NCBI RefSeq assembly: GCF_032854445.1
Contig: NC_088305.1
Location: forward strand, 6,203,606 to 6,267,605
Direction: 5' to 3'
Length of the DNA: 64,000 bases
Source: Liolophura sinensis
Taxonomy: Eukaryota; Mollusca; Polyplacophora; Chitonida; Chitonidae
Shown here: piece after piece, positions 1 through 38,183 of the stretch
Position numbering within the stretch: position 1 is the stretch's first letter
Layout: every line of letters begins with the position of its first letter
Translations under genes and position numbers: made by a program
The notes under the pieces: generated by a model
Seen by the model: only the letters and a program-made list of their open reading frames with translations
Databases searched by the model: none
What the model was told of the DNA's origin: nothing

Positions 1-6047
<6,047 letters not shown>

Positions 6048-14700: not shown

Positions 14701-17700
14701 TTGCATCAGATCAAGAGGCATGTGGCTTTGCATCAGATCAAGAGGCATGTGGCTTTACATCATATCAAGGGGCTTGTGGCTTTACATCAGATCAAGGGAC
14801 TTGTGGCTTTACATCAGATCAAGAGGCTTGTGGCTTTGCATCAGATCAAGAGGCTTGTGGCTTTACATCAGATCAAGAGGCATGTGGCTTTACATCAGAT
14901 CAATAGGCTTGTGGCTTTACATCAGATCAAGAGGCTTGTGGCTTTACATCAGATCAAGAGTCTTGTGGCTTTACATCAGATCAAGAGGCTTGTGGCTTTG
15001 CATCAGATCAATAGGCTTGTGGCTTTACATCAGATCAAGAGGCATGTGGCTTTACATCAGATCAAGAGGCTTGTGGCTTTACATCAGATCAAGAGGCTTG
15101 TGGCTTTACATCAGATCAAGAGGCATGTGGCTTTGCATCAGATCAAGAGGCATGTGGCTTTACATCAGATCAAGAGGCTTGTGGCTTTACATCAGATCAA
15201 GGGATTTGTGGCTTTACATCAGATCAAGAGGCTTGTGGCTTTGCATCAGATCAAGAGGCTTGTGGCTTTGCATCAGATCAAGAGGCATGTGGCTTTACAT
15301 CAGATCAAGAGGCTTGTGGCTTTACATCAGATCAAGAGGCTTGTGGCTTTACATCAGATCAAGAGGACCAACCACCGCTCACTCCCCTTCCTTCCCCTCC
15401 CCTATGCAGTTATACTTGGTGGGCAGGGGAAGGCCTCTGAGTTTAGCGTTCTAGAGTGGTTAGTGTGCGAGAGTGGTTTAAATAATGTGCTGGTGCAGCA
15501 CCACGACCAAAAGCCTCCAACTAATGTTAGTGGACGCTTTGAATTCAAGTCCAGCTCATGCTAGCTTCCTGTGCACATGTACAAATGACCTGACCTGACC
15601 TGACCCAAACAGTTGTCAGTGGTTTTATACCCTGTGCTGTTGGCTACGCTTTTATATCATGCTGATCTGTATAAATTGTGGTGTTTTCCAAGATATCCCA
15701 CACATAATCCTGACTCCAGTTTCTAGTTTTGTTTTATTATAAATATTTCTTTGTTTTTTTTTCTGAATTCAGGACATTCAAGACCTGATAGCCTCATGGG
15801 ATGACCTCATTAAAAAATGTGACCTCATTTTTCTCAGAGCTCCGAGTTTTAACCGACAGATTTTCTTTGGGGGCAAAAACCCTCCCTTTCGTAAACATGA
15901 TCCCCGGATAAGAATCATTCCGTTCCCAACGAGGAGAGCGACGTACAAAGAGGTTCGCAGGGTTCACGAAATGCTGGCGTCAATTGAGTGCTACGGTAAG
16001 CAGGACTTGTTTGGATACCAGATTATTTCACACTTTAATTTAGAATTTGACTGGTTGACTGGTTAAATAAGTTGAATTTAAATGTTTTTCTGTGACGGTT
16101 TGGAGTGGAAATTTGAACATGTTTTGAGGTGGAATCAACATTTATGCTGACAATTTGGCAACAACATTTGATAATTCTATCACATATTTTTGGATATAAA
16201 CTGTTGCTTCGTTGTATCAGTGGTCGCTAGTTTCCTCCACCCATAAACCTGACTACCATCATAAAGGTGAACAATTTTTGAGCAGAGCATTAAAAACTAA
16301 ATAATCAAATTATACCATTCCTCTGTGGAGTTATATTTCAAATTTTGTCTGTGTTGTTCACTGTGTTCTGTCAGTTTGACAGTTTACGCAATGTGCCCTT
16401 TTGTTTTTGCCCTGGACGTAATTCAGCGCACGTACATACACGGCTCAAATAAACATAGCAAAGGAAAGTTGAAGCTGATGTCAGTTGACTTTATTTGTTT
16501 TTATTGTATACACCAGCTAGCTGTGAATCTGTTTCTCTGGATAACAAAGAGCCTCAACATCATTATGAAGCAAATGACACTGTTAAGAGAATGTGGAACA
16601 GTGCAAAATAAATCTCATCAAAGAGCTACATGGGGAGAGATAAGATTTGTAACACTTTGGATGAAGGATGTGGGTTTTAGAGTGGAGCTAGGTTTTATTG
16701 ATTGGTTACTCACTTCATAAAGTTGGGGTTATGATTTCTGTTGCTAGGCAAGGAAGAGGATATTCGAGAGTTCGTTCCCTTGTCACCACGCCGGACATTT
16801 AGCTTGGAAAGTGGTCATCTGGAACCAATCACTGACAATTCTGAGTTTCCTAGTCCCAAGAAAAAATCGCCAAAAAACAAAGCGAGGCTATCTCCCTTAG
16901 CCAGGACCAATTCACAAGAGGATCAGTCTGCTGTCACTGATGTCACTCACCCAAATTTACCTGTACTAGGTAAGACCAGATGAATTCTGAATAACAAGGT
17001 GTTATAATCAATATTAAAGTGAAAAAGTCATGGAACCACACTTATCCATTGTTTAATCGCAATCAGGAGTTCTTGTAGTTAATGCAGGTTGCTGTAAATC
17101 TTGCCTATGCTACGTGTCTTCTCCAACATTCAAGTGGTTTATACATGATTGAATGAAACCTTTATTTAAAGAGAGTAACCCTGTCAAATTTAACAATTTG
17201 CTCTTCCCAGAGGCCCTCTATAACAATACATGAACATTAAACACATACAAATAGTATATATATATATATAATTCCATTTTTTAAGCACCTGAAAACAGTC
17301 AGTAATACATCACTACATATATCAGTTCATATAAATTTAGTGGTTGAAGTACTTTTTCAAATAACGTGACTTAAAAGCAGAAAGTGATGGTGCTGTTTTG
17401 ATTAGACATTCTGAATTGTCCCAAGCAGGACAGCTCACTGCTGTAAACCTGTTTTTATAATAGTTAGAGTTATGCTTATCAATATGAAGGTTGTTGAAAG
17501 TTGATCTAAGAAACTTATTGTGTACTGCTGTGTTTTTAAAAAGCAGTTCTTTTAGATATAGTGGTGACTCATCATGCAGTGATTTAAACATAAGACAAAT
17601 CATACAATATCTGATGCGATCAGAAAATGGCACCCAGTGTAAATTTAGGAGAACTGGAGCTGTAGAGTGAATGATGTCCTGCCAAAATACCTTACATTTT

Positions 17701-19548
17701 TAGACTACAGTGGGAAACAAAAAATTTTATGTCTCCCGACCTGAAATTTTACACAATACATGTATGTATATGTTGGTGTAAGTGTGTTATACAGAAAATG
17801 TTGTATGTATATGTTGGTGTAAGTGTGTTATACAGAAAATATACACTTTTAGTTTGGATGAATCATGTTAAGTCCGCTTTAAAACATAGCCTGAAAACTC
17901 AGCCAGCAAAAGTCATCAACCTCTGTATTTTTCAAAACTATTTTAATATAACCCTAATGTCATGATATCATGTCACTGGAAGATTTATACAACATATTGG
18001 AATAAATTATAATACATTAATTTAACACTTCGTATTTATTTCAACTTTGAGATCTGTTGCTCACATCATTTTGAGGTATTTTATCTGCAAAATTGATCTT
18101 ACCTAAACATGCTGAATAGGAAATGTTATGTTACAGACAGCCTTTTGCGAGACCGAAGACAGTCAACGTCTTCTGTTGGGTCATCTGCCAGTGATGTTGA
18201 CCTGGTGTGTTTGCATCAGGAGATTTCAACACTTAACCTAAAACTGTTTGAAGCTACCAGAAAGCCTCGGAGAAAAAAGCAGAAGAAGAAGGGTGATATA
18301 CTGTCCAAACATCAAGTAGAACCGGAGAGTAATGTTTTTGGTGAGTTAAAAAAAAAAAACAACAACTGTGATTTCCAAATTCTTTTGTTTCAGTTTAACA
18401 ATAGTTTGCAGCAGAATTCTTATGTTGTTGCATGGCTTCCTCTCTGGCCGTACGTGGGAAGGTCTGTCAGCAACCTCCAGATGGTCGTGGGTTTCCTCCA
18501 GGCTCTGCCCAGTTTTCTCCCACCATAATGCTGGCCACCGTCGTATAAGTGAAATATTCTTGAGTACGGCGTAAAACACCAATCAAATAAATAAACCATA
18601 TTGCTGTACCTTGTCTGGTTATGTGTGAAAAGCAGTGTATACAAGGAATGCTGACATTTTGAATTTCTGTTGAACAGAAGAGGAAAAGTACCATCTGAAG
18701 AACTCTCTGTACACAGCCTGTAAAGTAGGAGATGTGGACAGTCTGAAAAATTTACTGGCCATTTTCAACCCTCCAGCAACTGATCAGTCACCACCACCAA
18801 CAACAGCTGAACAAGGGAAGCTTGAGGCTAGTTCTAGCAATGCTGGGTCATTGGATCTGAGTCACATCACCAGTAATTCAGCCTCTCAGGAAAAAGATCT
18901 CCCCAAGACAAAAGCCAATCACAACCATTGTCGCAAATCAACCAATCAGAGCAAAGAAAAGCTTGATACTAGTGACAATAATGCCGAGTCATTCTCAAGT
19001 CACATCTGCAATAATTCAACCAATCAGGAAGACGATATGTCTAATACAAAAGCCAATCATATCCATGGTCACAAATCAACCAATGAGGGCCAAGATAATG
19101 CTTTTGAAGGTGTGTTGAACAAAAAGAACCATCCCGAGGACTTTTGTAATGAAGAAACTAAAGCAAGTGGTTTTGATTTAAAGGAAAATAAAAGTGTTGG
19201 CATCACTAGTGATAACAATAAGGAGAGCAATAAACTAATCAGATCTCATAGTGGTTTTCATTTATCTGTATCTCAACAATCGGCTGGGAAGGTTGCCATG
19301 AAGACATACTCCACAGAGATACTGTCACCAGTAGTTACCCACCAGCTGTTAAATGAACCTATCGGAGACAGCTGTATGACCTTATTACATGTCGCATCAA
19401 AGGAGGGACATAAAAGCATTCTGGGACTTCTGCTGGCGGCTGGAGCAGATCCATCTGTCAAGTAAGTGTCTTACTCATCAGCTTACCATGCGTACCAAAG
19501 GTTGAAAACTGGGTTGACTGAATGTACATGTATGGTTTTTTTAAATAA

Positions 19549-19579
<31 letters not shown>

Positions 19580-22500
19580 TTATAAAGGTATCCAAACTAA
19601 ATAATTTTCGTTTACATGTAAATTGGAGAAAATAACATAAATATGGTAAATGGCCAAATATTTCGTTCTTTGACCTGATCAAGAGGCACAGTTTGCTTGA
19701 GAAAGGTCTTATCGTAACACTTCTAAAGTTCATCTGAAATTTCAGACAGGTTTTAAGGCTTTACTCCAGGTGGCAGTCTGTCTCTTTCGATTAGAAAATT
19801 GATATCAGGTCTAAGGTTTGTTTAAAATCTAGGATGATATTCTATTCCAAAAATTTCACACTTGAAAGAAATATTTTATGACCTTTATTTGTTTGTAAAA
19901 ATGCACTTTTGTTTTTGACGAAGTTTTAGGCCATATGTTGTACATTTTTCATGAAAAGTGTTTGTATCAAGGACATTTAGCAAGCTATTGCATCCAATTA
20001 ATATCAGAAATACATGTACAAATGTGTACAGTATTTGTAGGAACTCTCTACTGTCAGCGGGCTGAATTACAGTATTTACAGTCGTTTACAAGTGTCAATT
20101 TATGGTACTCTAAAAATTTGTCTTTGGAAGCAGTGGTTGAAATTAAGGCCACCTTTAAGACTGGTACTATATTTGCTCAGTACGTGTAAAAGGAACAGGA
20201 GAGGTCTTTTCATTCTTGTGGCACCTCCACATTTATGTTCTTAGCGAGATAGCTGTTTGGAGTACATGTGAATGGGGTTTCTCTACATGTATGTAATAAG
20301 TGAGATAGCTGTTTGGTGTACTTGTGACAGAGGTTTCTCTACGTGTATGTACTAAGTGAGGTAGCTGTTTGGAGTACATGTGACAGGGGTTTCTCTACAT
20401 GTATGTAATAAGTGAGATAGCTGTTTGGTGTACTTGTGACAGAGGTTTCTCTACATGTATGTACTAAGTGAGATAGCTGTTTGGAGTACATGTGAATGGG
20501 GTTTCTCTACGTGTATGTAATAAGTGAGATAGCTGTTTGGAGTACATGTGAATGGGGTTTCTCTACGTGTATGTACTTAGCGAGATAGCTGTTTGGAGTA
20601 CATGTGAATGGGGTTTCTCTACATGTATGTAATAAGTGAGATAGCTGTTTGGTGTACTTGTGACAGAGGTTTCTCTACGTGTATGTACTAAGTGAGATAG
20701 CTGTTTGGAGTACATGTGACAGGGGTTTCTCTACATGTATGTAATAAGTGAGATAGCTGTTTGGTGTACTTGTGACAAAGGTTTCTCTACATGTATGTAC
20801 TAAGTGAGATAGCTGTTTGGAGTACATGTGACAGGGGTTTCTCTACATGTATGTAATAAGTGAGATAGCTGTTTGGTGTACTTGTGACAGAGGTTTCTCT
20901 ACATGTATGTACTAAGTGAGATAGCTGTTTGGAGTACATGTGAATGGGGTTTCTCTACGTGTATGTACTAAGTGAGATAGCTGTTTGGTGTATGTGAGAC
21001 TGGGGTTTCTCAACTGCAGGCCAAATAAACCCTTAGGGGTAACCTTGAGCGATGAAACAACATAATGGCAGCATAATGTAACCGGTGTCTTCGACATGAT
21101 ACTTCAATGACGGCAGCACTTTGGTGGCATGGACTCTCCCTGTCACAAGAAGACACAATTTATGTTCACGCACATAATGACTTCTCATCAAGATTTGAAT
21201 GAAGAATTGTTAAGTTTCACGTTAATTCCTAAGCATACTTTATAAGTGAAATATTCTTGGTTACAGCGTAAGACACCAATGAAGTAAATAAATAAATATA
21301 TAGACTTGAAAGATTTGTTTCCACAATCCACAATGTTTGTAATCCACATGTGAATTTCTCCATCTTGGCTGATACAGGGATCATTTTGGACAGACACCTT
21401 ACACAAGCAGCAAGAGTAAAGAAGTGCGGAATGAATACAGGCGGTTTATGGCTAGATTTCCTGACAGATACGATTACCTAAAAGCAGAGGTAAATAGGGA
21501 TTTTCAATAAATGACCATTAAGAGGAATATGTCGTGTTTTAACAATGGCCTCAGCTGCCAGTAATGTGTCCAGGGATGATTCACGATGTCCACTTTGATG
21601 ATGTGTATGAAATGTTTCACTAGCAAATATCAACATTGATTATTAATCACCGTCTTTTAATATATGCTTTTCACACCTGAACATTTTAAGAACAACTACT
21701 GAGGCCCTCCTGTATCTGTACAAAACTGTTGCATTAGCTCTTATTTTGTATTTAGTCAAGTTTTGTTTAATATTTCGGATTAAAAATATGAGATGATTGT
21801 TGCAGATCCCTGGTCCATTGACAGAAGATATGGAGAAGGAGAGAAAAAAGAAAGAAGCAGAGAGGAAGAAGGTGCAGAGAAAAGCCAAGCAGGAGAGGCT
21901 AAAGGTACTGGTAGTGGGTACTGGTGGTGGGTACTGGTAGTGGGTACTGTGGCTGTAGTGGTACTGGTAGTGGGTACCGGTGGCTGTAGTGTAGTGGGTA
22001 CTGGTGGCTGTAGTGGAACTGGTAGTGGGTACTGGTGGCTGTAGTGGTACTGGTAATGGGTACTGGTGGCTGTAGTGGTACTGGTAGTAGGTACTGGGGG
22101 CTGTAGTGGGTGCTGGTAGTTGGTACTGGTGGATGTAGTGCTACTGACGGTTGTAGTGGTTCTGGCAGTGGAAGTGGGGGATGAAGTGGTTATAGTGATA
22201 CTGGTAGTGGGATCCAAGTGGTGCTGACAGTTGTAGTGGTATTGGCAGTGATGCTGGTGGATGTTGTGGTACTGGTGGTATAGTTGGTTTCATTGGCACT
22301 GGTTGTGTTAGTGGTGATACTGCTACTGGTGGTTGTAGTACTGATGCTAGTAGTTGTGGTACTGGTGATTGTAGTATTAATATATAGGTAGTGGTGTTTG
22401 TGGTGGTTGTGGTACTGGTGGTGGTTGTTATACTGGTGGTATAGTTGGTTTCATTGGCACTGCTTGTGTTAGTGGTGATAATGGTACTGGTGGTTGTAGT

Positions 22501-25215
22501 ACTGATGCTAGTAAGTGAGTGAGTGAGTGCTTGGGGTTTAACGTCGGACTCAACAATTTTTCAGTCATATGACAATGAAGGAATCCTTAGGGTGCATGTA
22601 CGTGTAATGTGCCTCCTTGTAGCAGGACGGATTTTCACTGCTCTTTTATCTAGTGCTGCTTCACTGAGACGACTTACCGAAGGCAAGTAAGCCGCCGCGC
22701 TCGAGCCATTATACTGATAGGGGTCAACCAGTCGTTGCACCATCCCCTTGATGCTGAACGCCAAGCGAGGAAGTTACAACTTCCTCTTTTAAAGTCTTGG
22801 GGGTGACTCGACCCAGGATTGATTCTGGATCTACCGCTCCCGAAGCGGACGCTCTTCCAACTGTGCTATCCGGGCCGGTCTGATGCTAGTAGTTGTGGTA
22901 CTGGTGGTTGTAGTATTGATATATAGGTAGTGGTGTTTGTGGTGGTTGTGGTACTGGTGGTGGTTGTTATACTGGTGGTATAGTTGGTTTCATTGGCAAT
23001 GCTTGTGTTAGTGGTGATACTGGTACTGGTGGTTGTAGTACTGATGCAAGTAGTTGTGGTACTGGTGGTTGTTGTGGTACTGGTGGCTGTTGTGGTACTG
23101 GTGGATATTGTGGTACTTGTTGTTGTGGTACTGGTGGTGCTGCTTGTATTGATGTAGTATTGATGCTAGTACTGGCACTAGCTGTAGTACTGGTGGTTGT
23201 AGTACTAGTAGTGGCACTGACTGGTAGCGGTTGAAAAAACATGTTCACATAATTAATTAGTATGTCACGATCAACATTTGTTACAGGTCAAATAGCAGAT
23301 AAGCCATTTTTATGTTAAGTTCATGTTAAAATTACTGTACTGGTGATTTGTGGCTAAAAATTTTATCACCACAAACTCATTCAAATTCGTAGTAATATTT
23401 TCGGATAGCCAAAATAACTGCCTATATACTTTGAGTAGAGTTGAGGTCTGTTTTCTGATTTTAAAATAACAAAAAATTGCAAAGTGTACAAATTTTTGTC
23501 TTTGCTTAGGATCAGAGAGCTGAGGAAGAAAGACAGAAAGCTGAGGAAAATGAGAAGAAGAGATTCCTGTCTCTGTCAGACAGAGAAAAGGTGCGTACAC
23601 TTCTTCTTGTTTTGTTGTTACCTGTTGACATCCATTTATTTCCTTGCACTTCGCTGCTCGTTAACCAGTTGCCACATTCTATTTTTAATCACTTCTTGTA
23701 AAACCTGAATTTAATCTGAAGCCATTACCATTGATCAGTCAGTAATCGTATTTAGAGATTTCGGTAGCAAAACTTAGATACATGTGTATAATGGCGGAAA
23801 AAAATGCTGTAAAATAGCTACACATGCTGCCATTAAAATATCAGTTACTGTTTATAAATACTTGTGTTGCTTTGTTTAGAGAGCGCTAGCAGCTGAGAGA
23901 CGCCAAATGAAGAGTGCCTTATCCTCAGGGGGAGTAATTCCTGTCCTTGCGTGAGTAGCAATGCAAAGATGTTAAATACATTTACATGTATAACTTTGTT
24001 TTATTTGAAAAAAAAGGAGATGATTTCTTTGATCTATCTCTTCTCTTGACCCATTTCTTCTCTTGACCCATTTCTTCTCTTGGCCCATCTCTTCTCTTGA
24101 CCCATTTCTTCTCTTGGCCCATCTCTTCTCTTGGCCCATTTCTTCTCTTGACCCATTGACCCATTTCTTCTCTTGACCCATCTCTTCTCTTGACCCATTT
24201 CTTCTCTTGGCCCATTTCTTCTCTTGACCCATTTCTTCTCTTGGCCCATCTCTTCTCTTGACCCATTTCTTCTCTTGGCCCATCTCTTCTCTTGACCCAT
24301 TTCTTCTCTTGGCCCATTTCTTCTCTTGACCCATTTCTTCTCTTGGCCCATCTCTTCTCTTGACCCATTTCTTCTCTTGGCCCATCTCTTCTCTTGGCCC
24401 ATTTCTTCTCTTGACCCATCTCTTCTCTTGACCCATTTCTTCTCTTGGCCCATTTCTTCTCTTGGCCCATCTCTTCTCTTGACCCATTTCTTCTCTTGGC
24501 CCATCTCTTCTCTTGGCCCATTTCTTCTCTTGACCCATTTCTTCTCTTGACCCATTCTACATTGGCCTTCACATATCCTCCACCTGCATGACATAATAAT
24601 GTGGCCTTGGAATCACAAGGCGACCTTAGATTTAAGTCAAAACTTCAGAACGCTTTCAAATTGTTATTTCTGACAATATTGCTTGACAATGTAACTTCTG
24701 TGAAAGTTGTTGTACAACAAATAACTCAAATTCAGCTAAAATAATTGAAAGGAACATACCAAAATTAATGCTTAAAATTTTGACTTAAGTACAATATCAC
24801 TTTGTCATCCCAGGGCGTGATATACTGGTAAGACGTCTGCTGCATGGCAGTGGCCCACCCAAGATGCTCTTGTTTTCCTGCAGGAAAATAGTCTGGCCAT
24901 ATTAGTAGAAGTGAAGAGTCACTGGGCCTAAAATATCAATAAAATAAATACATTAAAGTAATATTAAATCATTTAGGAAAGTCACCCGAGCAAAACAGGC
25001 ACCACCATCCTTACAATTTAATACCTCTAGCTCTAGAGAAACACAACAGCCAGATTTTTATATTAAAGGACCATGCATTTTTTTCCTGCAGAAGGTGCTT
25101 CCATTGTGCCTCTGACATGACGGGCAAGGTGCCGTTTGAGTACAGCGACTTCAAGTTCTGCTCAACCAAATGTCTGAAGGAACACAGGCTAAAGAGCTCT
25201 GCCAAGAAATCATAA
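8543..25215 (+). CDS. ANKZF1: ANKZF1 / Vms1 homologue, complete 15-exon gene
   Basis: Peptidyl-tRNA hydrolase/endonuclease that frees stalled nascent chains from 60S subunits in ribosome quality control, and works with p97/VCP, including at mitochondria. The exon lengths (250, 86, 97, 254, 116, 148, 223, 222, 204, 784, 112, 99, 81, 71, 124) keep frame throughout and give 956 residues, against about 726 in human. Domains: C2H2 finger C99-x2-C102-x12-H115-x5-H121; VLRF1 about 205-390 with the GSAQ motif at Q290; ankyrin region about 535-830, broken by a long low-complexity insertion; charged coiled-coil about 833-890; VIM motif R890-x5-AA-x2-R900; treble clef C918-x2-C921-x17-C939-x3-C943 at the C-terminus. 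The start is the first ATG after the 8492 acceptor. The last seven exons are repeated after the assembly gap. Confidence 0.95.
9697..10590. repeat. 31-bp minisatellite in ANKZF1 intron 1
   Basis: About 29 units of 31 bases (tgatggtgtaagcctgtggt and variants; some units are shortened). The minus-strand frame at 10015-10233 is a by-product. Confidence 0.95.
10695..10780 (+). CDS. ANKZF1: ANKZF1 exon 2 (first half of zinc finger)
   Basis: After acceptor tgtaccag. Encodes VSEIKKEFLVSEKM and SCNFCQTEFPHRNEQ, with the two zinc-binding Cys. Donor GTACTG, phase 0. Confidence 0.9.
11123..11219 (+). CDS. ANKZF1: ANKZF1 exon 3 (second half of zinc finger)
   Basis: Encodes KHHYRSDWHRFNLKQRIKGL, with the two zinc-binding His and the family-typical DWHRFNLK, then SVSEDAFETIS. 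The finger is therefore split by a 342-bp intron. Confidence 0.95.
11251..11515 (+). mobile_element. SINE family A, near full length
   Basis: tRNA-like head (ggctctgtggcctagtgaat), body (accagcaacctgtggttagg) and tail (gaaatattcttgagtgtggt, (aaat)n). Lies in ANKZF1 intron 3. Confidence 0.85.
11865..11962 (+). mobile_element. SINE family A, diverged fragment
   Basis: Contains ggttctgtggtttagt, cccataaacctgactaccat and gtgaaaaattcttgg, a shortened family-A copy without most of its body. Confidence 0.5.
12025..12290 (+). mobile_element. SINE family B, diverged copy
   Basis: Contains gcccgctgacagtataatgt, caagaagacacaatatatgt, cataatgactcatcttcatc and aaattgtttagtatggcatt followed by aaaccccaagcatac, the family-B body and tail. 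Confidence 0.65.
12351..12604 (+). CDS. ANKZF1: ANKZF1 exon 4 (acidic linker, start of VLRF1)
   Basis: Encodes an Asp/Ser-rich stretch (SDTDSDGSDTESD), then KYPKVFLRNSSGQLISLYRC, which opens the VLRF1 domain. Acceptor ctgttccag, donor GTGAGA, phase 0. Confidence 0.93.
13094..13209 (+). CDS. ANKZF1: ANKZF1 exon 5 (VLRF1)
   Basis: Encodes NPPETCADITTIASSL then MTWVVMMAGGGHFAAAIFD, the VLRF1 core strand with a Gly-rich turn. Acceptor acaccTAG, donor GTAGAT, phase 2. Confidence 0.95.
13309..13503 (-). mobile_element. SINE family A, reverse orientation
   Basis: Reads backwards from the tail: tggtgtttcacgccgtaccc, aagaatatttcatttatacg, aaacccatgaccatctgcag, and ends near ctggacctgaactcaag. ANKZF1 intron 5. 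Confidence 0.8.
13995..14160 (-). mobile_element. SINE family A, reverse orientation
   Basis: Contains gggtgttttacgccgtgccc, tagaatatttcacttatgcg and aacccacgatcatcggcagg. It ends about 40 bases before the exon 6 acceptor. Confidence 0.8.
14202..14349 (+). CDS. ANKZF1: ANKZF1 exon 6 (VLRF1 catalytic motif)
   Basis: Encodes VVQHKTFHRYVVRAKRGSAQ then GASLRRYNEAALMQ. Q290 in RGSAQG aligns with the catalytic glutamine of Vms1/ANKZF1, so the hydrolase is probably active. Confidence 0.96.
14520..15365. repeat. 27-bp minisatellite in ANKZF1 intron 6
   Basis: About 31 tandem units of 27 bases (atcaagaggcatgtggcttt and variants). The period is nine codons and no frame picks up regular stops, so all three forward frames stay open for long stretches (14475-14906, 14531-15454, 14533-15564). 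These are not genes. Confidence 0.95.
15773..15995 (+). CDS. ANKZF1: ANKZF1 exon 7 (end of VLRF1)
   Basis: Encodes DIQDLIASWDDLIKKCDLIF, LRAPSFNRQIFFGGKNPPF and IPFPTRRATYKEVRRVHEML. The APS..FFGGK and PTRRATYKE blocks are typical of the family. Donor GTAAGC, phase 1. Confidence 0.96.
16220..16318 (+). mobile_element. SINE family A fragment
   Basis: Contains cagtggtcgctagtttcctc, cccataaacctgactaccat, gtgaacaatttttgagcaga and a degenerate tail. Confidence 0.5.
16748..16969 (+). CDS. ANKZF1: ANKZF1 exon 8 (linker)
   Basis: Encodes GKEEDIREFVPLSPRRTFSL then a Ser/Lys-rich disordered linker (SPKKKSPKNKARLSPLARTN). Acceptor tgttgctag, donor GTAAGA. This is the last exon present only once in the window. 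Confidence 0.9.
17160..17695 (-). pseudogene. Decayed LINE reverse transcriptase, C-terminal fragment
   Basis: Minus-strand translation shows a typical non-LTR retrotransposon C-terminus: LNLHWVPFSDRIRYCMICLM, FKSLHDESPLYLKELL and APSLSAFKSRYLKKYF. No RT catalytic core or endonuclease is present, so it is 5'-truncated. The second contig copy begins inside it (17,680 matches 28,082). It lies in ANKZF1 intron 8. Confidence 0.75.
17757..17845. repeat. Two-unit 41-bp repeat (allele of the 28,160 array)
   Basis: Only two units of gtatgtatatgttggtgtaa... are present here, against about 18 at the same place in copy 2. Confidence 0.85.
18137..18340 (+). CDS. ANKZF1: ANKZF1 exon 9, copy 1
   Basis: Encodes DSLLRDRRQSTSSVGSSASD, VDLVCLHQEISTLNLKL and a basic patch RKPRRKKQKKK. 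Acceptor tgttacag, donor GTGAGT. Confidence 0.92.
18428..18597 (+). mobile_element. SINE family A, copy 1
   Basis: Body (ggcttcctctctggccgtac, cagcaacctccagatggtcg) and tail (gaaatattcttgagtacggc, aaataaat). Present at the same place in copy 2 (29,457-29,622), so it predates the split of the two copies. Confidence 0.85.
18678..19461 (+). CDS. ANKZF1: ANKZF1 exon 10, copy 1 (ankyrin with insertion)
   Basis: 784 bases. Encodes a first ankyrin helix pair (YHLKNSLYTACKVGDVDSLK), then about 190 residues of Ser/Asn/Lys-rich low complexity, then TLLHVASKEGHKSILGLLLA and AGADPSVK. The insertion contains two related blocks, each with KANHxH and KSTN. It accounts for most of the extra length over vertebrate ANKZF1. 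Confidence 0.93.
19548..19582. repeat. (TA)n microsatellite
   Basis: About 15 TA dinucleotides just after ANKZF1 exon 10; much shorter at the same place in copy 2 (near 30,575). Confidence 0.85.
20245..21005. repeat. 56-bp minisatellite (112-bp dimers), copy 1
   Basis: About 13 units of 56 bases containing gagatagctgtttggagtac. Units alternate between a gagtacatgtg type and a gtgtacttgtg type, giving a 112-bp higher-order period. Copy 2 has about 7 units (31,254-31,675). Confidence 0.9.
21020..21302 (+). mobile_element. SINE family B fragment followed by family A tail, copy 1
   Basis: 21,020-21,235 carries family-B pieces (gatgaaacaacataatggca, caagaagacacaatttatgt). 21,238-21,302 carries a short family-A tail (gtgaaatattcttggttaca, aaataaataaat). 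Both recur in copy 2. Confidence 0.6.
21378..21489 (+). CDS. ANKZF1: ANKZF1 exon 11, copy 1
   Basis: Encodes DHFGQTPYTSSKSKEVRNEY and RRFMARFPDRYDYLKAE, the end of the ankyrin region, typical of ANKZF1. Donor GTAAAT, phase 0. Confidence 0.95.
21806..21904 (+). CDS. ANKZF1: ANKZF1 exon 12, copy 1
   Basis: Encodes IPGPLTEDMEKERKKKEAER and a basic coiled-coil. Donor GTACTG, which opens straight into a GGTACTGGT-type minisatellite. Confidence 0.93.
21905..23230. repeat. TGGTAC-rich minisatellite split by a SINE, copy 1
   Basis: G/T-rich short units such as ggtactggtggctgtagt fill 21,905-22,513 and resume at 22,880-23,230. It starts directly at the exon 12 donor. The minus-strand Thr/Ser/Pro-rich frames here (21780-22217 and 22967-23248) are artefacts. 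Confidence 0.9.
22514..22879 (-). mobile_element. SINE family B, full length, with target-site duplication
   Basis: 366 bp. On the minus strand it opens with a tRNA-like head: ggcccggatagcacagttgg (A-box region) and an anticodon-like loop ttcggga between ccgc and gcgg, followed by a B-box-like gaatcaatcc. It ends with acgttaaaccccaagcactc and an (actc)n tail. The 12-base ctgatgctagta flanks it on both sides (22,502-22,513 and 22,880-22,891). Confidence 0.85.
23510..23590 (+). CDS. ANKZF1: ANKZF1 exon 13, copy 1 (start of VIM motif)
   Basis: Encodes DQRAEEERQKAEENEKKRFL then SLSDREK. The Arg of REK is the first residue of the RX5AAX2R p97-binding motif, finished by the next exon. Confidence 0.93.
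23880..23950 (+). CDS. ANKZF1: ANKZF1 exon 14, copy 1 (rest of VIM motif)
   Basis: Encodes RALAAERRQMKSALSSGGVI then PVLA. Joined to the previous exon it forms REKRALAAERR, a perfect VIM (VCP-interacting motif). Donor GTGAGT, phase 2. Confidence 0.94.
24039..24556. repeat. 17-bp pyrimidine minisatellite, copy 1
   Basis: About 30 units of 17 bases (tcttctcttgacccatt, with a g/a variant) in ANKZF1 intron 14. Copy 2 has about 11 units. The GQEKKW-type minus frames are artefacts. Confidence 0.95.
25092..25215 (+). CDS. ANKZF1: ANKZF1 exon 15 and stop, copy 1
   Basis: Encodes RCFHCASDMTGKVPFEYSDF, KFCSTKCLKEHRLKSS and the C-terminus AKKS, stop TAA at 25213. Four Cys fit the Vms1-associated treble clef. 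Confidence 0.95.
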
Positions 25216-27881: not shown

Positions 27882-28081
27882 NNNNNNNNNNNNNNNNNNN
27901 NNNNNNNNNNNNNNNNNNNNNNNNNNNNNNNNNNNNNNNNNNNNNNNNNNNNNNNNNNNNNNNNNNNNNNNNNNNNNNNNNNNNNNNNNNNNNNNNNNNN
28001 NNNNNNNNNNNNNNNNNNNNNNNNNNNNNNNNNNNNNNNNNNNNNNNNNNNNNNNNNNNNNNNNNNNNNNNNNNNNNNNNN
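27882..28081. other. Assembly gap, 200 N
   Basis: Exactly 200 N, a round placeholder length. It separates two segments that are near copies of each other. Confidence 0.99.
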
Positions 28082-28159
28082 TGCCAAAGTACCTTACATT
28101 TTTAGACCTACAGTGGGAAACAAAAATTTTATGTCTCCCGACCTGAAATTTACACAATA

Positions 28160-28862
28160 CATGTATGTATATGTTGGTGTAAGTGTGTTATACAGAAAAT
28201 GTTGTATGTATATGTTACTGTTATACAGAAATTGTTGTATGTATATGTTACTGTTATACAGAAATTGTTGTATGTATATGTTGGTGTAAGTGTGTTATAC
28301 AGAAAATGTTGTATGTATATGTTGGTGTAACTGTTATACAGAAAATGTTGTATGTATATGTTGGTGTAAGTGTGTTATACAGAAAATGTTGTATGTATAT
28401 GTTGTGTAACTGTTATACAGAAAATGTTGTATGTATATGTTGGTGTAACTGTTATACAGAAAATGTTGTATGTATATGTTGGTGTAAGTGTGTTATACAG
28501 AAAATGTTGTATGTATATGTTGGTGTAAGTGTGTTATACAGAAAATGTTGTATGTATATGTTGGTGTAAGTGTGTTATACAAAAAATGTTGTATGTATAT
28601 GTTGGTGTAACTGTTATACAGAAATTGTTGTATGTATATGTTGGTGTAAGTGTGTTATACAGAAATTGTTGTATGTATATGTTGGTGTAAGTGTGTTATA
28701 CAGAAATTGTTGTATGTATATGTTGGTGTAAGTGTGTTATACAGAAAATGTTGTATGTATATGTTACTGTTATACAGAAAATGTTGTATGTATATGTTGG
28801 TGTAAGTGTGTTATACAGAAAATCTTGTATGTATATGTTGGTGTAAGTGTGTTATACTGAAA
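28160..28862. repeat. 41-bp minisatellite, expanded in copy 2
   Basis: About 18 units of about 41 bases (some shortened to 29) containing gttgtatgtatatgttggtg. Only two units exist in copy 1. The frame at 28183-28569 is an artefact. Confidence 0.93.
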
Positions 28863-29160
28863 ATATACACTTTTAGTTTAGATGAATCATGTTAAGTCCG
28901 CTTTAAAACATAGCCTAAAATCTCAGCCAGCAAAAGTCATCAACCTCTGTATTTTTCAAAACTATTTTAATATAACCCTAATGTCATGATATCATGTCAC
29001 TGGAAGATTTATACAACATATTGGAATAAATTATAATACATTAATTTAACACTTCGTATTTATTTCAACTTTGAGATCTGTTGCACACATCATTTTGAGG
29101 TATTTTATCTGCAAAATTGATCTTACCTAAATATGCTGAATAGGAAATGTTATGTTACAG

Positions 29161-29364
29161 ACAGCCTTTTGCGAGACCGAAGACAGTCAACGTCTTCTGT
29201 TGGGTCATCCGCCAGTGATGTTGACCTGGTGTGTTTGCATCAGGAGATATCAACACTTAACCTTAAACTGTTTGAAGCTACCAGAAAGCCTCGGAGAAAA
29301 AAGCAGAAGAAGAAGGGTGATATACTGTCCAAACATCAAGTAGAACCGGAGAGTAATGTTTTTG
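29161..29364 (+). CDS. ANKZF1: ANKZF1 exon 9, copy 2
   Basis: Same 204 bases and splice sites as 18137-18340. Differences such as tct/tcc, att/ata and cta/ctt are silent. Confidence 0.85.
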
Positions 29365-29456
29365 GTGAGTTAAAAAAAAAAAAACAACAACTGTGATTTC
29401 CAAATTCTTTTGTTTCAGTTTAACAATAGTTTGCAGCAGAATTCTTATGTTGTTGC

Positions 29457-29622
29457 ATGGCTTCCTCTCTGGCCGTACGTGGGAAGGTCTGGCAGCAACC
29501 TCCAGATGGTCGTGGGTTTCCTCCAGGCTCTGCCCAGTTTTCTCCCACCATAATGCTGGCCACCGTCGTATAAGTGAAATATTCTTGAGTACGGCGTAAA
29601 ACAGCAATCAGATAAATAAACC
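29457..29622 (+). mobile_element. SINE family A, copy 2
   Basis: Counterpart of 18,428-18,597, same insertion point. Confidence 0.85.
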
Positions 29623-29702
29623 ATATCGTTGTATCTTGTCAGGTTATGTATGAAAAGAAGTGTATACAAGGAATGCTGACATTTTGAATTTCTGTTGAAC
29701 AG

Positions 29703-30486
29703 AAGAGGAAAAGTACCATCTGAAGAACTCTCTGTACACAGCCTGTAAAGTAGGAGATGTGGACAGTCTGAAAAATTTACTGGCTATTTTCAACCCTCCA
29801 GCAACTGATCAGTCACCACCACAAACAACAGCTGAACAAGGGAAGCTTGAGGCTAGTTCTAGCAATGCTGGGTCATTGGATCTGAGTCACATCACCAGTA
29901 ATGCAGCCTCTCAGGAAAAAGATCTCCCCAAGACAAAAGCCAATCACAACCATTGTCACAAATCAACCAATCAGAGCAAAGATAAGCTTGATACTAGTGA
30001 CAATAATGCCGAGTCATTCTCAAGTCACATCTGCAATAATTCAACCAATCAGGAAGACGATATGTCTAATACAAAAGCCAATCATATCCATGGTCACAAA
30101 TCAACCAATGAGGGCCAAGATAATGCTTTTGAAGGAGTGTTGAACAAAAAGAACCATCCCGAAGACTTTTGTAATGAAGAAACTAAGGCAAGTGGTTTTG
30201 ATTTAAAGGAAAATAAAAGTGTTGGCATCACTAGTGATAACAATAAGGAGAGCAATAAACTAATCAGATTTCATAGTGGTTTTCATTTATCTGTATCTCA
30301 ACAATCGGCTGGGAAGGTTGCCATGAAGACATACTCCACAGAGATACTGTCACCAGTAGTTACCCACCAGCTGTTAAATGAACCTATCGGAGACAGCTGT
30401 ATGACCTTACTACATGTGGCATCAAAGGAGGGACATAAAAGCATTCTGGGACTTCTGCTGGCGGCTGGAGCAGATCCATCTGTCAA
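29703..30486 (+). CDS. ANKZF1: ANKZF1 exon 10, copy 2
   Basis: 784 bases as in copy 1, frame intact. Replacements against copy 1 in the inserted region: P to Q (PPQTTAEQ), S to A (SNAASQ), R to H (HCHKST), E to D (QSKDK), S to F (IRFHSG). Confidence 0.85.
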
Positions 30487-31253
30487 GTAAGTGTCTTACT
30501 CATCAGCTTACCATGCGTACCAAAGGTTGAAAACTGAGTTGACTGAATGTACATGTATTGTTTTTTAAGTAATATATGTATATATATAATTATAAAGGTA
30601 TCAAAACTAAATAATTTTCGTTTACATGTAAATTGGAGAAAATAACATAAATATGGTAAATGGCCAAATATTTCGTTCTTTGACCTGATCAAGAGGCACA
30701 GTTTGCTTGAGAAAGGTCTTGCCGTAACACTTCTAAAGTTCATCTGAAATTTCAGACAGGTTTTAAGGCTTTACTCCAGGTGGCAGTCTGTCTCTTTCAA
30801 TTAGAAAATTGATATCAGGTGTAAGGTTTGTTTAAAATCTAGGATGATATCCTACTCCAAAAATTTCACACTTGAAAGAAATATTTTATGACCTTTATTT
30901 GTTTGTAAAAATGCACTTTTGTTTTTGACGAAGTTTTAGGCCATATGTTGTACATTTTTCATGAAAAGTGTTTGTATCAAGGACATTTAGCAAGCTATTG
31001 CATCCAGTTAATATCAGAAATACATGTACAAATGTGTACAGTATTTGTAAGAACTCTCTACTGTCAGCGGGCTGAATTACAGTATTTACAGTCGTTTACA
31101 AGTGTCAATTTATGGTACTCTAAAAATTTGTCTTTGGAAGCAGTGGTTGAAATTAAGGCCACCTTTAAGACTGGTACTATATTTGCTCAGTACGTGTAAA
31201 AGGAACAGGAGAGGTCTTTTCATTCTTGTGGCACCTCCACATTTATGTTCTTA

Positions 31254-31675
31254 GCGAGACAGCTGTTTGGAGTACATGTGAATGGGGTTTCTCTACATGT
31301 ATGTAATAAGTGAGATAGCTGTTTGGTGTACTTGTGACAGAGGTTTCTCTACGTGTATGTACTAAGTGAGATAGCTGTTTGGAGTACATGTGACAGGGGT
31401 TTCTCGACATGTATGTAATAAGTGAGATAGCTGTTTGGTGTACTTGTGACAAAGGTTTCTCTACATGTATGTACTAAGTGAGATAGCTGTTTGGAGTACA
31501 TGTGACGGGTTTCTCTACATGTATGTAATAAGTGAGATAGCTGTTTGGTGTACTTGTGACAGAGGTTTCTCTACATGTATGTACTAAGTGAGATAGCTCT
31601 TTGGAGTACATGTGAATGGGGTTTCTCTACGTGTATGTACTAAGTGAGATAGCTGTTTGGTGTATGTGAGACTGG
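31254..31675. repeat. 56-bp minisatellite, copy 2
   Basis: About 7 units, against about 13 in copy 1; same alternating unit types. Confidence 0.9.
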
Positions 31676-32038
31676 GGTTTCTCAACTGCAGGCCAAATAA
31701 ACCCTTAGGGGTAACCTTGAGCGATGAAACAACATAATGGCAGCATAATGTAACCGGTGTCTTCGACATGATACTTCAATGACAGCAGCACTTTGGTGGC
31801 ATGGACTCTCCCTGTCACAAGAAGACACAATTTATGTTCACGCACATAATGACTTCTCATCAAGATTTGAATGAAGAATTGTTAAGTTTCACGTTAATTC
31901 CTAAGCATACTTTATAAGTATAAGTGAAATATTCTTGGTTACAGAGTAAGACACCAATGAAGTAAATAAATAAATATATAGACTTGAGATATGTGTTTGT
32001 AATCCACAATGTGAATTTCTCCATCTTGGCTGATACAG

Positions 32039-32150
32039 GGATCATTTTGGACAGACACCTTACACAAGCAGCAAGAGTAAAGAAGTGCGGAATGAATACA
32101 GGCGGTTTATGGCTAGATTTCCTGACAGATACGATTACCTAAAAGCAGAG
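32039..32150 (+). CDS. ANKZF1: ANKZF1 exon 11, copy 2
   Basis: 112 bases encoding the same peptide as copy 1 (DHFGQTPYTSSKSKEVRNEY...). Confidence 0.85.
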
Positions 32151-32467
32151 GTAAATAGGGATTTTCAATAAATGACCATTAAGAGGAATATGTCGTGTTT
32201 TTAACAATGGCCTCAGCTGCCAGTAATGTGTCCAGGATGATTCACGATGTCCACTTTGATGATGTGTATGAAATGTTTCACTAGCAAATATCAACATTGA
32301 TTATTTATCACAGTCTTTTAATGTATGCTTTTCACACCTGAACATTCTAAGAACAACTACTGAGGCCCTCCTGTATCTGGTACAAAACTGTTGCATTAGC
32401 TCTTATTTTGTATTTAGTCAAGTTTTGTTTAATATTTCGGATTAAAAATATGAGATGATTGTTGCAG

Positions 32468-32566
32468 ATCCCTGGTCCATTGACAGAAGAGATGGAGAAG
32501 GAGAGAAAAAAGAAAGAAGCAGAGAGGAAGAAGGTGCAGAGAAAAGCCAAGCAGGAGAGGCTAAAG
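32468..32566 (+). CDS. ANKZF1: ANKZF1 exon 12, copy 2
   Basis: 99 bases; one replacement against copy 1, D to E in PLTEEMEKE. Confidence 0.85.
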
Positions 32567-33875
32567 GTACTGGTAGTGGGTACTGGTGGTGGGTACTGGT
32601 AGTGGGTACTGTGGCTGTAGTGGTACTGGTAGTGGGTACCGGTGGCTGTAGTGTAGTGGGTACTGGTGGCTGTAGTGGTACTGGGTACTGGTGGCTGTAG
32701 TGGTACTGGTAGTAGGTACTGGGGGGCTGTAGTGGGTACTGGTAGTTGATACTGGTGGCTGTAGTGCTACTGACGGTTGTAGTGGTTCTGGCAGTGGATG
32801 TGGGGGATGAAGTGGTAGCGGTGGTTATAGTGATACTGGTAGTGGGATCCAAGTGGTGCTGACAGTTGTAGTGGTATTGGCAGTGATGCTGGTGGATGTT
32901 GTGGTACTGGTGGTATAGTTGGTTTCATTGGCACTGGTTGTGTTAGTGATGATACTGCTACTGGTGGTTGTAGTACTGATGCTAGTAGTTGTGGTACTGG
33001 TGATTGTAGTATTAATATATAGGTAGTGGTGTTTGTGGTGGTTGTGGTACTGGTGGTTGTTGTGATACTGGTGGTATAGTTGGTTTCATTGGCACTGCTT
33101 GTGTTAGTGGTGATAATGGTACTGGTGGTTGTAGTACTGATGCTAGTAAGTGAGTGAGTGAGTGCTTGGGGTTTAACGTCGGACTCAACAATTTTTCAGT
33201 CATATGACAACGAAGGAATCCTTAGGGTGCATGTACATGTAATGTGCCTCCTTGTAGCAGGACGGATTTTCACCGCTCTTTTATCTAGTGCTGCTTCACT
33301 GACTTACCGAAGGCAAGTAAGCCGCCCCGCTCGAGCCATTATACTGATACGGGTCAACCAGTCGTTGCACCATCCCCTTGATGCTGAACCCCAAGCGAGG
33401 AAGTTACAACTTCCTCTTTTAAAGTCTTGGGTGTGACTCGACCCAGGATTGATTCTGGATCTACCGCTCCCGAAGCGGACGTTCTTCCAACTGTGCTATC
33501 CGGGCCGGTCTGATGCTAGTAGTTGTGGTACTGGTGGTTGTAGTATTGTTATATGGGTAGTGGTGTTAGTGGTGGTTGTGGTACTGGTGGTTGTTGTTAT
33601 ACTGGTGGTATAGTTGGTTTCATTGGCAATGCTTGTGTTAGTGGTGATACTGGTACTGGTGGTTGTAGTACTGATGCTAGTAGTTGTGTTACTGGTGGTT
33701 GTTGTGGTACTGGTGGTTGTTGTGGTACTGGTGGATATTGTGGTACTTGTTGTTGTGGTACTGGTGGTGCTGCTTGTATTGATGTAGTATTGATGCTAGT
33801 ACTGGCACTAGCTGTAGTACTGGTGGTTGTGGTAGTGATATGGATACTAGTAGTGGCACTGACTGGTAGCGGTTG
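32567..33875. repeat. TGGTAC-rich minisatellite split by a SINE, copy 2
   Basis: Counterpart of 21,905-23,230, with small unit losses. The family-B SINE sits at 33,149-33,509 with ctgatgctagta on both sides. Confidence 0.9.
33149..33509 (-). mobile_element. SINE family B, copy 2
   Basis: Counterpart of 22,514-22,879, at the same site, with a few substitutions and a 5-base loss near 33,300 (cactgacttacc). Confidence 0.85.
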
Positions 33876-34151
33876 AAAATACATGTTCACAAAATTAATT
33901 AGTATGTCATGATCAACATTTGTTACAGGTCAAATAGCAGATAAGCCATTTTTATGTTAAGTTCATGTTAAAATTACTGTACTGGTGATTTGTGGCTAAA
34001 AATTTTATCACCACAAACTCATTCAAATTCGTAGTAATATTTTCGGATAGCCAAAATAACTGCCTATATACTTTGAGTAGAGTTGAGGCCTGTTTTCTGA
34101 TTTTAAAATAACAAAAAATGGCAAAGTGTACAAATTTTTGTCCTTGCTTAG

Positions 34152-34232
34152 GATCAGAGAGCTGAGGAAGAAAGACAGAAAGCTGAGGAAAATGAGAAGA
34201 AGAGATTCCTGTCTCTATCAGACAGAGAAAAG
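34152..34232 (+). CDS. ANKZF1: ANKZF1 exon 13, copy 2
   Basis: 81 bases; same peptide as copy 1. The donor is GTGTGT instead of GTGCGT. Confidence 0.85.
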
Positions 34233-34522
34233 GTGTGTACACTTCTTGTTGTTTTGTTTTTACCTGTTGACATCCATTTATTTCCTTGCACTTCGCTGCT
34301 CGTTAACCAGTTGCCAGATTCTATTTTTAATCACTTCTTGTAAAACCTGAATTTAATCTGAAGCCATTACCATTGATCAGTCAGTAATCGTATTTAGAGA
34401 TTTCGGTAGCAAAACTTAGATACATGTGTATAAATGGGGGGAAAAAATGCTGTGAAATAGCTACACATGCTGCCATTAAAATATCAGTTACTGTTTATAA
34501 ATACTTGTGTTGCTTTGTTTAG

Positions 34523-34593
34523 AGAGCGCTAGCAGCTGAGAGACGCCAAGTGAAGAGTGCCTTATCCTCAGGGGGAGTAATTCCTGTCCTTGC
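34523..34593 (+). CDS. ANKZF1: ANKZF1 exon 14, copy 2
   Basis: 71 bases; one replacement, M to V just after the VIM motif (AAERRQVK). The motif itself is intact. Confidence 0.85.
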
Positions 34594-34679
34594 GTGAGTA
34601 GCAATGCAAAGATGTTAAATACATTTACATGTATAACTTTGTTTTATTTGCAAAAAAAGGAGATGATTTCTTTGATCTA

Positions 34680-34868
34680 TCTCTTCTCTTGACCCGTTTT
34701 TTTCTCTTGGCCCATTTCTTCTCTTGGCCCATTTCTTCTCTTGACCCATTTCTTCTCTTGACCCATTTCTTCTCTTGGCCCATCTCTTCTCTTGACCCAT
34801 TTCTTCTCTTGGCCCATTTCTTCTCTTGACCCATTTCTTCTCTTGACCCATTTCTTCTCTTGACCCAT
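34680..34868. repeat. 17-bp pyrimidine minisatellite, copy 2
   Basis: About 11 units, against about 30 in copy 1. Confidence 0.93.
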
Positions 34869-35417
34869 TCTACACTGGCCTTCACATATCCTCCACCTGC
34901 ATGACATAATAATGTGGCCTTGGAATCACAAGGCGATCTTAGATTTAAGTCAAAACTTCAGAATGCTTTCAAATTGTTATTTCTGATGTAACAAGGTCAA
35001 AATATTGCTTGACAATGTAACTTCTGTGTAAGTTGTTGTACAACAAATAACTCAAATTCAGCTAAAATAATTGAAAGGAACATACCAAAATTAATGCTTA
35101 AAATTTTGACTTAAGTACAATATCACTTTGTCATCCCGGGGCGTGATATACTGGTAAGACGTCTGCTGCATGGCAGTGGCCCACCCAAGATGCTCTTGTT
35201 TTCCTGCAGGAAAATAATCTGGCCATATTAGTAGAAGTGAAGAGTCACTGGGCCTATAATATCAATAAAATAAATACATTAAAGTAATATTAAATCATTT
35301 AGGAAAGTTACCCGAGCAAAACAGGCACCACCATCCTTACAATTTAATACCTCTAGCTCTAGAGAAACACAACAGCCAGATTTTGATACTAAAGGACCAT
35401 GCATTTTTCTTCTGCAG

Positions 35418-35541
35418 AAGGTGCTTCCATTGTGCCTCTGACATGACGGGCAAGGTGCCGTTTGAGTACAGCGACTTCAAGTTCTGCTCAACCAAATGTC
35501 TGAAGGAACACAGGCTAAAGAGCTCTGCCAAGAAATCATAA
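35418..35541 (+). CDS. ANKZF1: ANKZF1 exon 15 and stop, copy 2
   Basis: 124 bases; same peptide and stop as copy 1. As copy 2 lacks exons 1-8, it could not make a full ANKZF1 alone. Confidence 0.85.
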
Positions 35542-35573
35542 CACCTGCTAACCCTTAAAAAGCATATTTTACT

Positions 35574-35602
35574 TATATATATATATATATATATATATTA
35601 AT
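35574..35602. repeat. (TA)n microsatellite, copy 2
   Basis: About 13 TA dinucleotides just after the copy 2 stop; longer than in copy 1. Confidence 0.85.
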
Positions 35603-36715
35603 ATTTATGTATGTTATTTGATGTGTTCAGTGTTTACCTGGGGACTCCATGGATTCCTTCACAAATAAAAACCTGAGGACACTGTTGTTCTTAGGTCAGT
35701 AGACCCCTCCCCCTCCCCAGAATCAGGCAAAATGAGTTTCTGTAGCTTACATGAAGTACATGTAGTTGTAGATGTAAATTTAGGTCAAATACAGCGTATT
35801 GTAAGTATTCTCATTATGAAGATGTTACTCTTAATGTGTTTTGGTATGACTGGGTGATTCGGTTAATGCGTTATTGTTGCCGCAGCCGGCCCGCCTATGA
35901 TGAATGAGATCATAGACTCTTATCCAGCTCTTGCTAAAGTGGCACCAGTTTCAGGTCACCAGGTCTGACTGATACTCCAGGTCTGACTGATACTGTACCT
36001 GGTCAGAAACGGTTTTCAGGTCACCAGGTCTGACTGATACTGTACCTGGTCAGAAACGGTTTTCAGGTCACCAGGTCTGACTGATACTGTACCTGGTCAG
36101 AAACGGTAGCTTTCTCCAAGATCTGCATATAGTGACTTTCTAATCCATGAACTTCAGTGTTGTTGATTGAAATAGTCTTGAGTACAGCATTAAACTGTTA
36201 TCAGATACATAAATACACACTTTGGCCTGGATCCATGACTGTTGTTATCTCGAAATACATGTAACCACTCTCTGCATTAGATATTAATATGTCTATACTG
36301 AAAGTTGTATTTATAGCACAGTATTGTCTGCCTGTAAGGCTATAGCCAGAGTACTCCCTCACTTAAAGTTAAACAATTAGTGTAAATCTTCAACCTTTTC
36401 AGCCACTAAAGCATCTTTTTCATTGAAATTTATGCATGCATTTATTATGAAAATGACACTAAAAATGACTTGTTTGTGTCACTAAAGATGCAGGTTTTAT
36501 AAAATTGCACAAATTATTTCTCTACATTCCATAGTTCTCTCAGAATGTTTCAAAATATTAGTTACAAAGGCGATAAAAAGGTTGAAGAATTAGGGTTTGT
36601 TCTCTTCATTTTAAAACTGTTGAAAGAAAGTCAGATTTCCTTTAAAATTCATTTAAAAGTGTCCTGACAATTTTTGTGGTATATAGTATTTTTTTGTGAA
36701 CACTGTATAATATTT

Positions 36716-37098
36716 CATGTGGGTTTCCCCCTGGCTCTGCCCAGTTTCGTCTCACCATGATGCTGGCCGCTGTCGTACTAGTGAAATATTCTTAAGTACG
36801 ACGTAAGCCTCCATTTGCATCAAATGCAATAAATTTTCACGTATACGATGGGGGTCAGTTTTATATGTGGAGGACACTGTCCCGCCTGTGGCGTAGAGGT
36901 ACGCATACCAGATTTGTGGAACAAATGACCAGTTTTGAACCTGCACCTTGTGTTGTAACGACTGAAAGGCAAGTGCCACAAGACCACTACCCACACCTGG
37001 GCTTACCTGAAGCTCCATTAAGATCACTTGAAGTCCACCACACTATATTCTAGAGTACGGCGTGAAACGCCAATCAAATAAATAAATAAATAAATATA
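36716..37098 (+). mobile_element. Composite SINE, copy 2
   Basis: Counterpart of 26,486-26,875. Confidence 0.65.
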
Positions 37099-37625
37099 AT
37101 AAGTTGAAGCGCTGCTTCATTGAAAAAGTCGAAAGACATGTAGGACAACCTTGTGTATTTTGTTCATCGCCACCAGTTTTGATGGTATTGTCTGATATTC
37201 CCTCTGTCATAGAGGACATATATTAAGATCCTAAAACTTTGGTTCTTTGCATTAAATGTGGTTTTAAGATACATGTACCTCACAATACAGTTAATTTTTG
37301 TGCGACCAAGCATTCACACTCACACCTTTTTTCTCTGCTTCCATATTTCAGGGATTTGTCAGACTAGTGATAAAATATGTGATCAGTATTTTGAAGACGT
37401 TTTACATGTATATTGATGGAATGATTCTAATATTATAAATGGTAGACTTTATAGAAAACTAACTGTAAAAACAATAATCCAGATCAGAATAAGGCCAGTT
37501 GTTCTATGTCCACCTCTCAGGGGGAAAATACGGCAATTTTACCTGGGAGTTTAACCCAGGACATCTGCCCGGTATCCTACAACCATAATATCCCATAATA
37601 TGTATGAGGTAAAACACCAATCAAA

Positions 37626-38183
37626 AAAGCCCTGTCCAAACTGTCCAACATCAACATCACTCATCTTTTGGTGACTCAACAAGAGTCAACATAAAGTTGA
37701 GTCAGCAAGTTGAGCTGTGTTGAGTAGTCAACAATACTAAACATTATCAAACCTGCTGGAATGGGAAAGTAGCCAATCAGCGTGGAGTGTGGAAATAACG
37801 TGACTGTCCTTTGGGCGCGTGATCTCTGCAAAATGGCAGCACCAAATGGGAAAGAGAGAGACTGATCTCACAATTGAGACAGTTTCGTTGATGCAGGAGA
37901 ATGAAAATTATGTTGCCTTTACGACACTCTCTATAAAGATTACAAAGACAGGGACAAAAGAAAATCGATGTGTCTCATGCATTGAAGAGAAAGGTGGAAA
38001 TTAGTCTCCATTTTGTTGACAGTTTGGGAAAAAAACACAGCTCAACACACGACAACAGCCTTGGACAACGTTAACCTATCTGATTTGTAGTGTGGACGGG
38101 ACACTCAACTTACCTCAACAGCATTCATCTTACTGAAGAGTCAACAAAAGCTGAACGATGTTCTAAAGTCTGGATGGGGCTTT
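37626..38183. mobile_element. TIR DNA element (non-autonomous)
   Basis: About 558 bp with inverted ends: left aaagccctgtccaaact, right (reverse strand) aaagccccatccagact. No transposase frame. Copy 1 contains only its left part, cut by the gap at 27,881. Confidence 0.6.

Follow-up and report, generated by a model that had tools for sequence, protein, structure and literature searches.

Two copies of the 3′ part of ANKZF1 around a 200-N gap in the Liolophura sinensis assembly: a very probable heterotype false duplication

Why does a stretch of about 10 kb carrying the last seven exons of ANKZF1 stand twice, in the same orientation, around a gap in the genome assembly of Liolophura sinensis? 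We analyzed a window of 64,000 nucleotides from the NCBI RefSeq assembly GCF_032854445.1 (contig NC_088305.1, here C11:6,203,606-6,267,605, forward strand), an assembly of 609 Mb in 632 contigs; positions below are those of the window unless a contig is named. An earlier note on this stretch had proposed a false duplication, in which two overlapping contig ends were left unmerged around the gap. Our analysis supports this proposal by the edge-to-edge overlap of the copies, the isolation of the gap, the intact exons and the lack of any further copy among the matches listed. The pair is very probably a heterotype false duplication as defined by the Vertebrate Genomes Project (VGP), that is, an artefact of assembly rather than a product of biology. 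Three things carry this case: the exons, the fact that there is only one gap, and match lists free of other copies.

The window contains a single run of N, exactly 200 in length. BLAST recovers the repeated stretch as two direct copies on either side of this run, in a series of plus-strand matches that reach both edges of the gap (Table 1). At the right edge of the gap the first base, 28,082, pairs with 17,680, and at the left edge the last base, 27,881, pairs with 38,070, which confirms the copy coordinates and the edge matches reported earlier. The earlier note had further argued that a real tandem duplication would rarely have both ends exactly at a gap. The overlap does reach both edges, but this argument has less force than claimed. 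Whatever lay beyond either end is hidden when a gap falls on the junction, so the geometry amounts to one coincidence and not two; a real tandem pair interrupted there by a gap would give the same picture. The length of the spacer resembles what we take to be a scaffolder constant (YaHS). With the window extended by 60 kb leftward and 40 kb rightward, no other run of N was found in the 164 kb scanned, and the only gap on this part of the scaffold is thus the one between the duplicated pair. A megablast comparison of the same 164 kb, restricted to direct pairs of at least 600 bp without the look of a tandem array (judged by overlapping or adjoining coordinates), returned only pieces of this pair.

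The sequence at the outer ends of the overlap bears on where the left contig breaks off. Inverted arms of 27 nt, 78% complementary and the longest among nine inverted pairs listed, delimit a probable complete short transposon that spans the end of copy 2, in agreement with the earlier placement of 38,070 inside an element with terminal inverted repeats. Copy 1 ends within the same transposon, and the remaining end of the element stands after copy 2. In searches of the assembly, five relatives common to both match lists run across the 38,070/38,071 point, their two matches being separated by 2 to 13 bases; they lie on contig C1 near 31.87, 49.99 and 68.25 Mb, on C6 near 37.82 Mb and on C7 near 34.30 Mb. 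In one C1 relative, the match to the copy 1 part stops at 31,874,995 and the match to the part following copy 2 resumes at 31,874,998. Since the relatives cross this point, the left contig ends where the sequence should continue as it does from 38,071. The other end fared differently: 17,680 had been placed inside a remnant of a long interspersed nuclear element (LINE), which is not clearly the case. None of the 33 other rows returned for the left probe, a count that excludes the locus itself and copy 2, passes 17,675, which puts the first base of copy 2 a minimum of 5 bases outside the part of the LINE that can still be recognised.

The gene was identified through its domains. A Pfam search with seven open frames, two of which had no match, found bVLRF1 in a frame left of the repeat and placed Ank and VATC (Vms1-associating treble clef) in each copy. 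Together with the exon order, these domains fit ANKZF1/Vms1. The exons in the repeat, 1,475 bases in total, were predicted by eye in copy 1, guided by open frames and AG/GT borders; aligning copy 2 to copy 1 then gave their predicted positions there. Both the earlier assignment to ANKZF1 and the presence of its last seven exons in the repeat are borne out, as seven exons could be traced in each copy. In copy 1 the chain of seven exons has AG/GT borders and forms a single open frame through to the stop. Copy 2 has exons of the same lengths, keeps 13 of 13 splice dinucleotides, and its frame is open.

Of 8,409 aligned bases, 149 are substituted between the copies (1.77%), a count that leaves out four arrays of variable length. 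Coding sites are less divergent than the rest, with 17 substitutions in 1,475 bases against 132 in 6,934 elsewhere (P 0.05). Over the 490 codons, 10 of these 17 are synonymous and 7 nonsynonymous, giving a ratio of nonsynonymous to synonymous divergence (pN/pS) of 0.19, with P 0.0008 against neutral change. None of the 57 indels between the copies falls in an exon, where 10 would be expected; with repeats left out, the count is 0 of 48, again with 10 expected. A tandem repeat scan showed that all four arrays differ in length between the copies, with the numbers of units given in Table 1. The scattered substitutions and array length differences that the earlier note had described are therefore present in both respects. 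We consider the differences between the copies to be evolutionary in origin, because errors of sequencing, if random, would neither pass over exons nor fall preferentially on synonymous sites. In their divergence, their pN/pS, their lack of exonic indels and their array lengths, the copies differ as real haplotype variants do, and we infer that they are two alleles.

Further copies were sought with probes from the interior and from both flanks of the pair. A probe of 1,628 bases from inside the copies, searched against the 609-Mb assembly, gave 41 rows among the best 40 of 310 candidates: the two full-length copies, 38 short repeat matches of 72-83% identity, and one 34-base self match. The left-end flank probe has no full-length match except the locus itself among the candidates, 35 of 35 of which were scored; its short matches reach up to 97% over 34 bases. 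The right-end flank probe has no other match above 92% identity among the best 40 of 4,613 candidates. Among the matches listed for these three probes, there is no third allele-like copy elsewhere in the assembly, whose masked stretches read as N in these searches.

A real, young, partial tandem duplication of the 3′ half of ANKZF1, with the gap at its junction by chance, would likewise give two same-orientation tandem copies about 2% apart, and the overlap geometry alone is compatible with it, as the gap would hide the junction. Such a duplication needs the gap to have fallen at the junction by chance, though it is the only gap in 164 kb. It would also leave one copy as an orphan without the upstream exons, and this copy would be expected to decay. 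Under a half-neutral pair model, 7 or fewer nonsynonymous changes among 17 have a P of 0.010-0.030, by the constraint assumed, and zero exonic indels within 17,761-26,000 have a P of 0.027. The exons thus do not show the relaxation from selection expected of an orphaned gene half, a result of moderate strength. Two alleles of one functional gene account for their pattern better than either simple sequencing error or the decay of a second 3′ half; this preference is moderate and not decisive. Taking the exons and the gap together, we regard a real partial tandem duplication as very improbable. A true recent duplication of the C-terminal exons in which both copies are under selection, for example as alternative 3′ ends, and in which the gap again hides the junction, is in our estimate less probable still.

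Least probable of the explanations considered is a homotype false duplication, in which one allele was written twice and the differences are sequencing errors in poorly covered contig ends. The overlap of about 10 kb would be of long-read size. One-base indels, 35 in all across the 8,409 aligned bases, cluster at the left edge of copy 2 and over the final 1,942 aligned bases of copy 1. Of these, 3 lie within the first 79 aligned bases of copy 2, against 0.28 expected from the average (P 0.003) and 0.10 expected from the rate in the next segment (P 0.0002). The last 63 bases of copy 1 also hold 3, against 0.22 expected from the average (P 0.0015); both edge windows were picked after inspection of the data. 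Moreover, each of the 8 one-base indels open to polarisation consists of an extra base. Unlike random error, the differences between the copies avoid exons and favour synonymous sites. Transitions and transversions stand at 78:71 rather than at the 1:2 of random change, and the large length differences in the four arrays also speak against this explanation. The copies do not differ by sequencing errors only.

Several observations nevertheless weigh against a simple reading of the pair as two alleles joined in error. The segment 25,845-27,881, aligned with 36,108-38,070 over 1,942 bases, holds 23 of the 35 one-base indels, while the preceding 1,053 aligned bases hold none. Because of this concentration, the excess at the right edge of copy 1 is weak when set against the local rate (0.67 expected, P 0.03). 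When the 8 informative indels are polarised against 28 repeat relatives, the extra base belongs to copy 1 in 5 cases and to copy 2 in 3. The 100 kb of extra flank yielded no second gap with this fault, which would have pointed to a systematic error.

Low consensus quality toward the contig end is one possible cause of the indel-rich segment. In each of the three indels closest to the left edge of the gap, it is copy 1 that has the additional base, the length of copy 2 being found in 25 to 27 of the 28 relatives; for the three polarised extra bases of copy 2, it is the length of copy 1 that is found in 25 to 27 of the 28. Within 26,380-27,540 there are 15 one-base indels, of which 12 have no relative, 1 has a single relative and 2 are polarisable. 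An attribution of the one-base indels to the left contig end alone was rejected, as extra bases are private to both copies (5 against 3). For the same reason, poor consensus at the contig ends is only suggested by these sequences.

The features of the locus can be compared with known cases, as far as these are described in the parts of the VGP reports drawn on here. In a heterotype false duplication a single assembly contains both alleles (Rhie et al. 2021, PMC8081667; Ko et al. 2022, PMC9516828). The marks given by Ko et al. 2022 are half read depth, a gap between pairs on the same scaffold, discordant read pairs and single-copy k-mers (PMC9516828). Of these marks the gap is present at our locus, and the divergence of its copies is allele-like. 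The heterotype cases described in these accounts resemble the present one in having two diverged tandem copies on one scaffold with a gap between them (PMC8081667, PMC9516828). They also include duplicated parts of genes, such as exons of zebra finch ADAMTS13 (Ko et al., PMC9516828) and 4 of the 10 exons of GABRG2 (Rhie et al., PMC8081667). At the present locus, judged here from the assembly sequence, the copies additionally differ in the lengths of four minisatellites. Homotype copies are described as lying at contig boundaries and as being about as long as a read (VGP, PMC8081667). Those cases share with ours the tandem copies, the gap between them, the position at contig ends and a length of long-read order (PMC8081667, PMC9516828). 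The difference is that here the divergence bears the mark of selection and not of random error.

The course of events behind a heterotype false duplication at this locus can be outlined conditionally, and we infer it from the features above. The animal sequenced would be heterozygous here, with alleles about 2% apart and unequal in the length of several minisatellites. One allele's contig may have been ended by the assembler at 27,881, while the next contig, belonging to the other allele, took up the sequence some 10 kb further back along the chromosome. Scaffolding would then have ordered the two contigs with a constant 200-N spacer, the overlap remaining undetected. The real chromosome would in that case contain this 10-kb stretch, with the last seven ANKZF1 exons, only once, and the window would be about 10 kb too long. 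Left uncorrected, the error attaches a spurious second 3′ half to ANKZF1, one that could be annotated as a partial duplication or a new gene, and makes the sequence too long by about 10 kb. A cheap screen that dispenses with reads also suggests itself: the sequences flanking each 200-N gap could be compared for an overlap that reaches both edges and for exon differences that are mostly synonymous and free of indels.

Table 1. Coordinates of the two copies, the gap and the associated features in the window
Feature	Position	Strand	Remarks
Copy 1	17,680-27,881	+	Left contig end, read as one allele of the ANKZF1 3′ region; BLAST and alignment
Gap	27,882-28,081		Exactly 200 N, between the copies
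Copy 2	28,082-38,070	+	Right contig start, read as the other allele of the ANKZF1 3′ region; BLAST and alignment
BLAST match	17,680-17,815 = 28,082-28,216	+	
BLAST match	17,761-20,675 = 28,785-31,683	+	
BLAST match	20,561-24,233 = 31,235-34,869	+	
BLAST match	24,355-25,750 = 34,668-36,107	+	
BLAST match	25,714-27,536 = 35,977-37,768	+	
BLAST match	27,581-27,881 = 37,765-38,070	+	
Open frame over upstream ANKZF1 VLRF1 exon	15,767-16,066	+	Pfam bVLRF1, E 3.8e-23; left of 17,680, outside the repeat
Last seven ANKZF1 exons, copy 1 (span 18,137-25,215)	18137-18340, 18678-19461, 21378-21489, 21806-21904, 23510-23590, 23880-23950, 25092-25215	+	Predicted
Last seven ANKZF1 exons, copy 2 (span 29,161-35,541)	29161-29364, 29703-30486, 32039-32150, 32468-32566, 34152-34232, 34523-34593, 35418-35541	+	Predicted
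41-bp array	Copy 1: 17,761-17,840; copy 2: 28,162-28,864	+	2.0 units in copy 1, 18.0 in copy 2
56-bp array			14.1 units in copy 1, 8.1 in copy 2
17-bp array			31.0 units in copy 1, 11.0 in copy 2
47-bp array			5.0 units in copy 1, 2.8 in copy 2
Short transposon, apparently whole	37,626-38,183	+	Inverted arms 37,626-37,652 and 38,157-38,183; spans the end of copy 2
Same transposon in copy 1	27,399-27,881	+	Right arm lost at the gap; left end placed by alignment

Other features were noted in the window and in the assembly. On the plus strand, 14,513-15,564 holds open frames of 313 and 346 amino acids over a 27-bp array, and these frames are probably by-products of the array rather than genes; the array is listed at 15,001-15,366 and extends further left, its listed start reflecting a scan begun at 15,000. 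On the minus strand, an open frame of 581 amino acids at 47,627-49,372 is putatively Kelch/BTB-like by eye, and two open frames at 1,724-2,985 resemble, again by eye, putative exons of isopentenyl-diphosphate isomerase. A long degenerate tandem array at about 58,240-61,050 has offsets in multiples of ~33 bp and contains long minus-strand open frames. The starts of eight of the 632 contigs were considered as a yardstick of heterozygosity and rejected, since by eye several have a repeat in common and one looks mitochondrial. The latter, the first part (1-3000) of contig C632 (15,209 bases), looks like a piece of a mitochondrial genome, with an ND1-like open frame under the invertebrate code; the apparent order is tRNA-Met, a long putative rRNA stretch and ND1, an arrangement considered typical of annelids. 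Several of the small contigs C40, C80, C150, C300 and C500 (1-3000) appear by eye to share one repeat unit, which occurs in both orientations.

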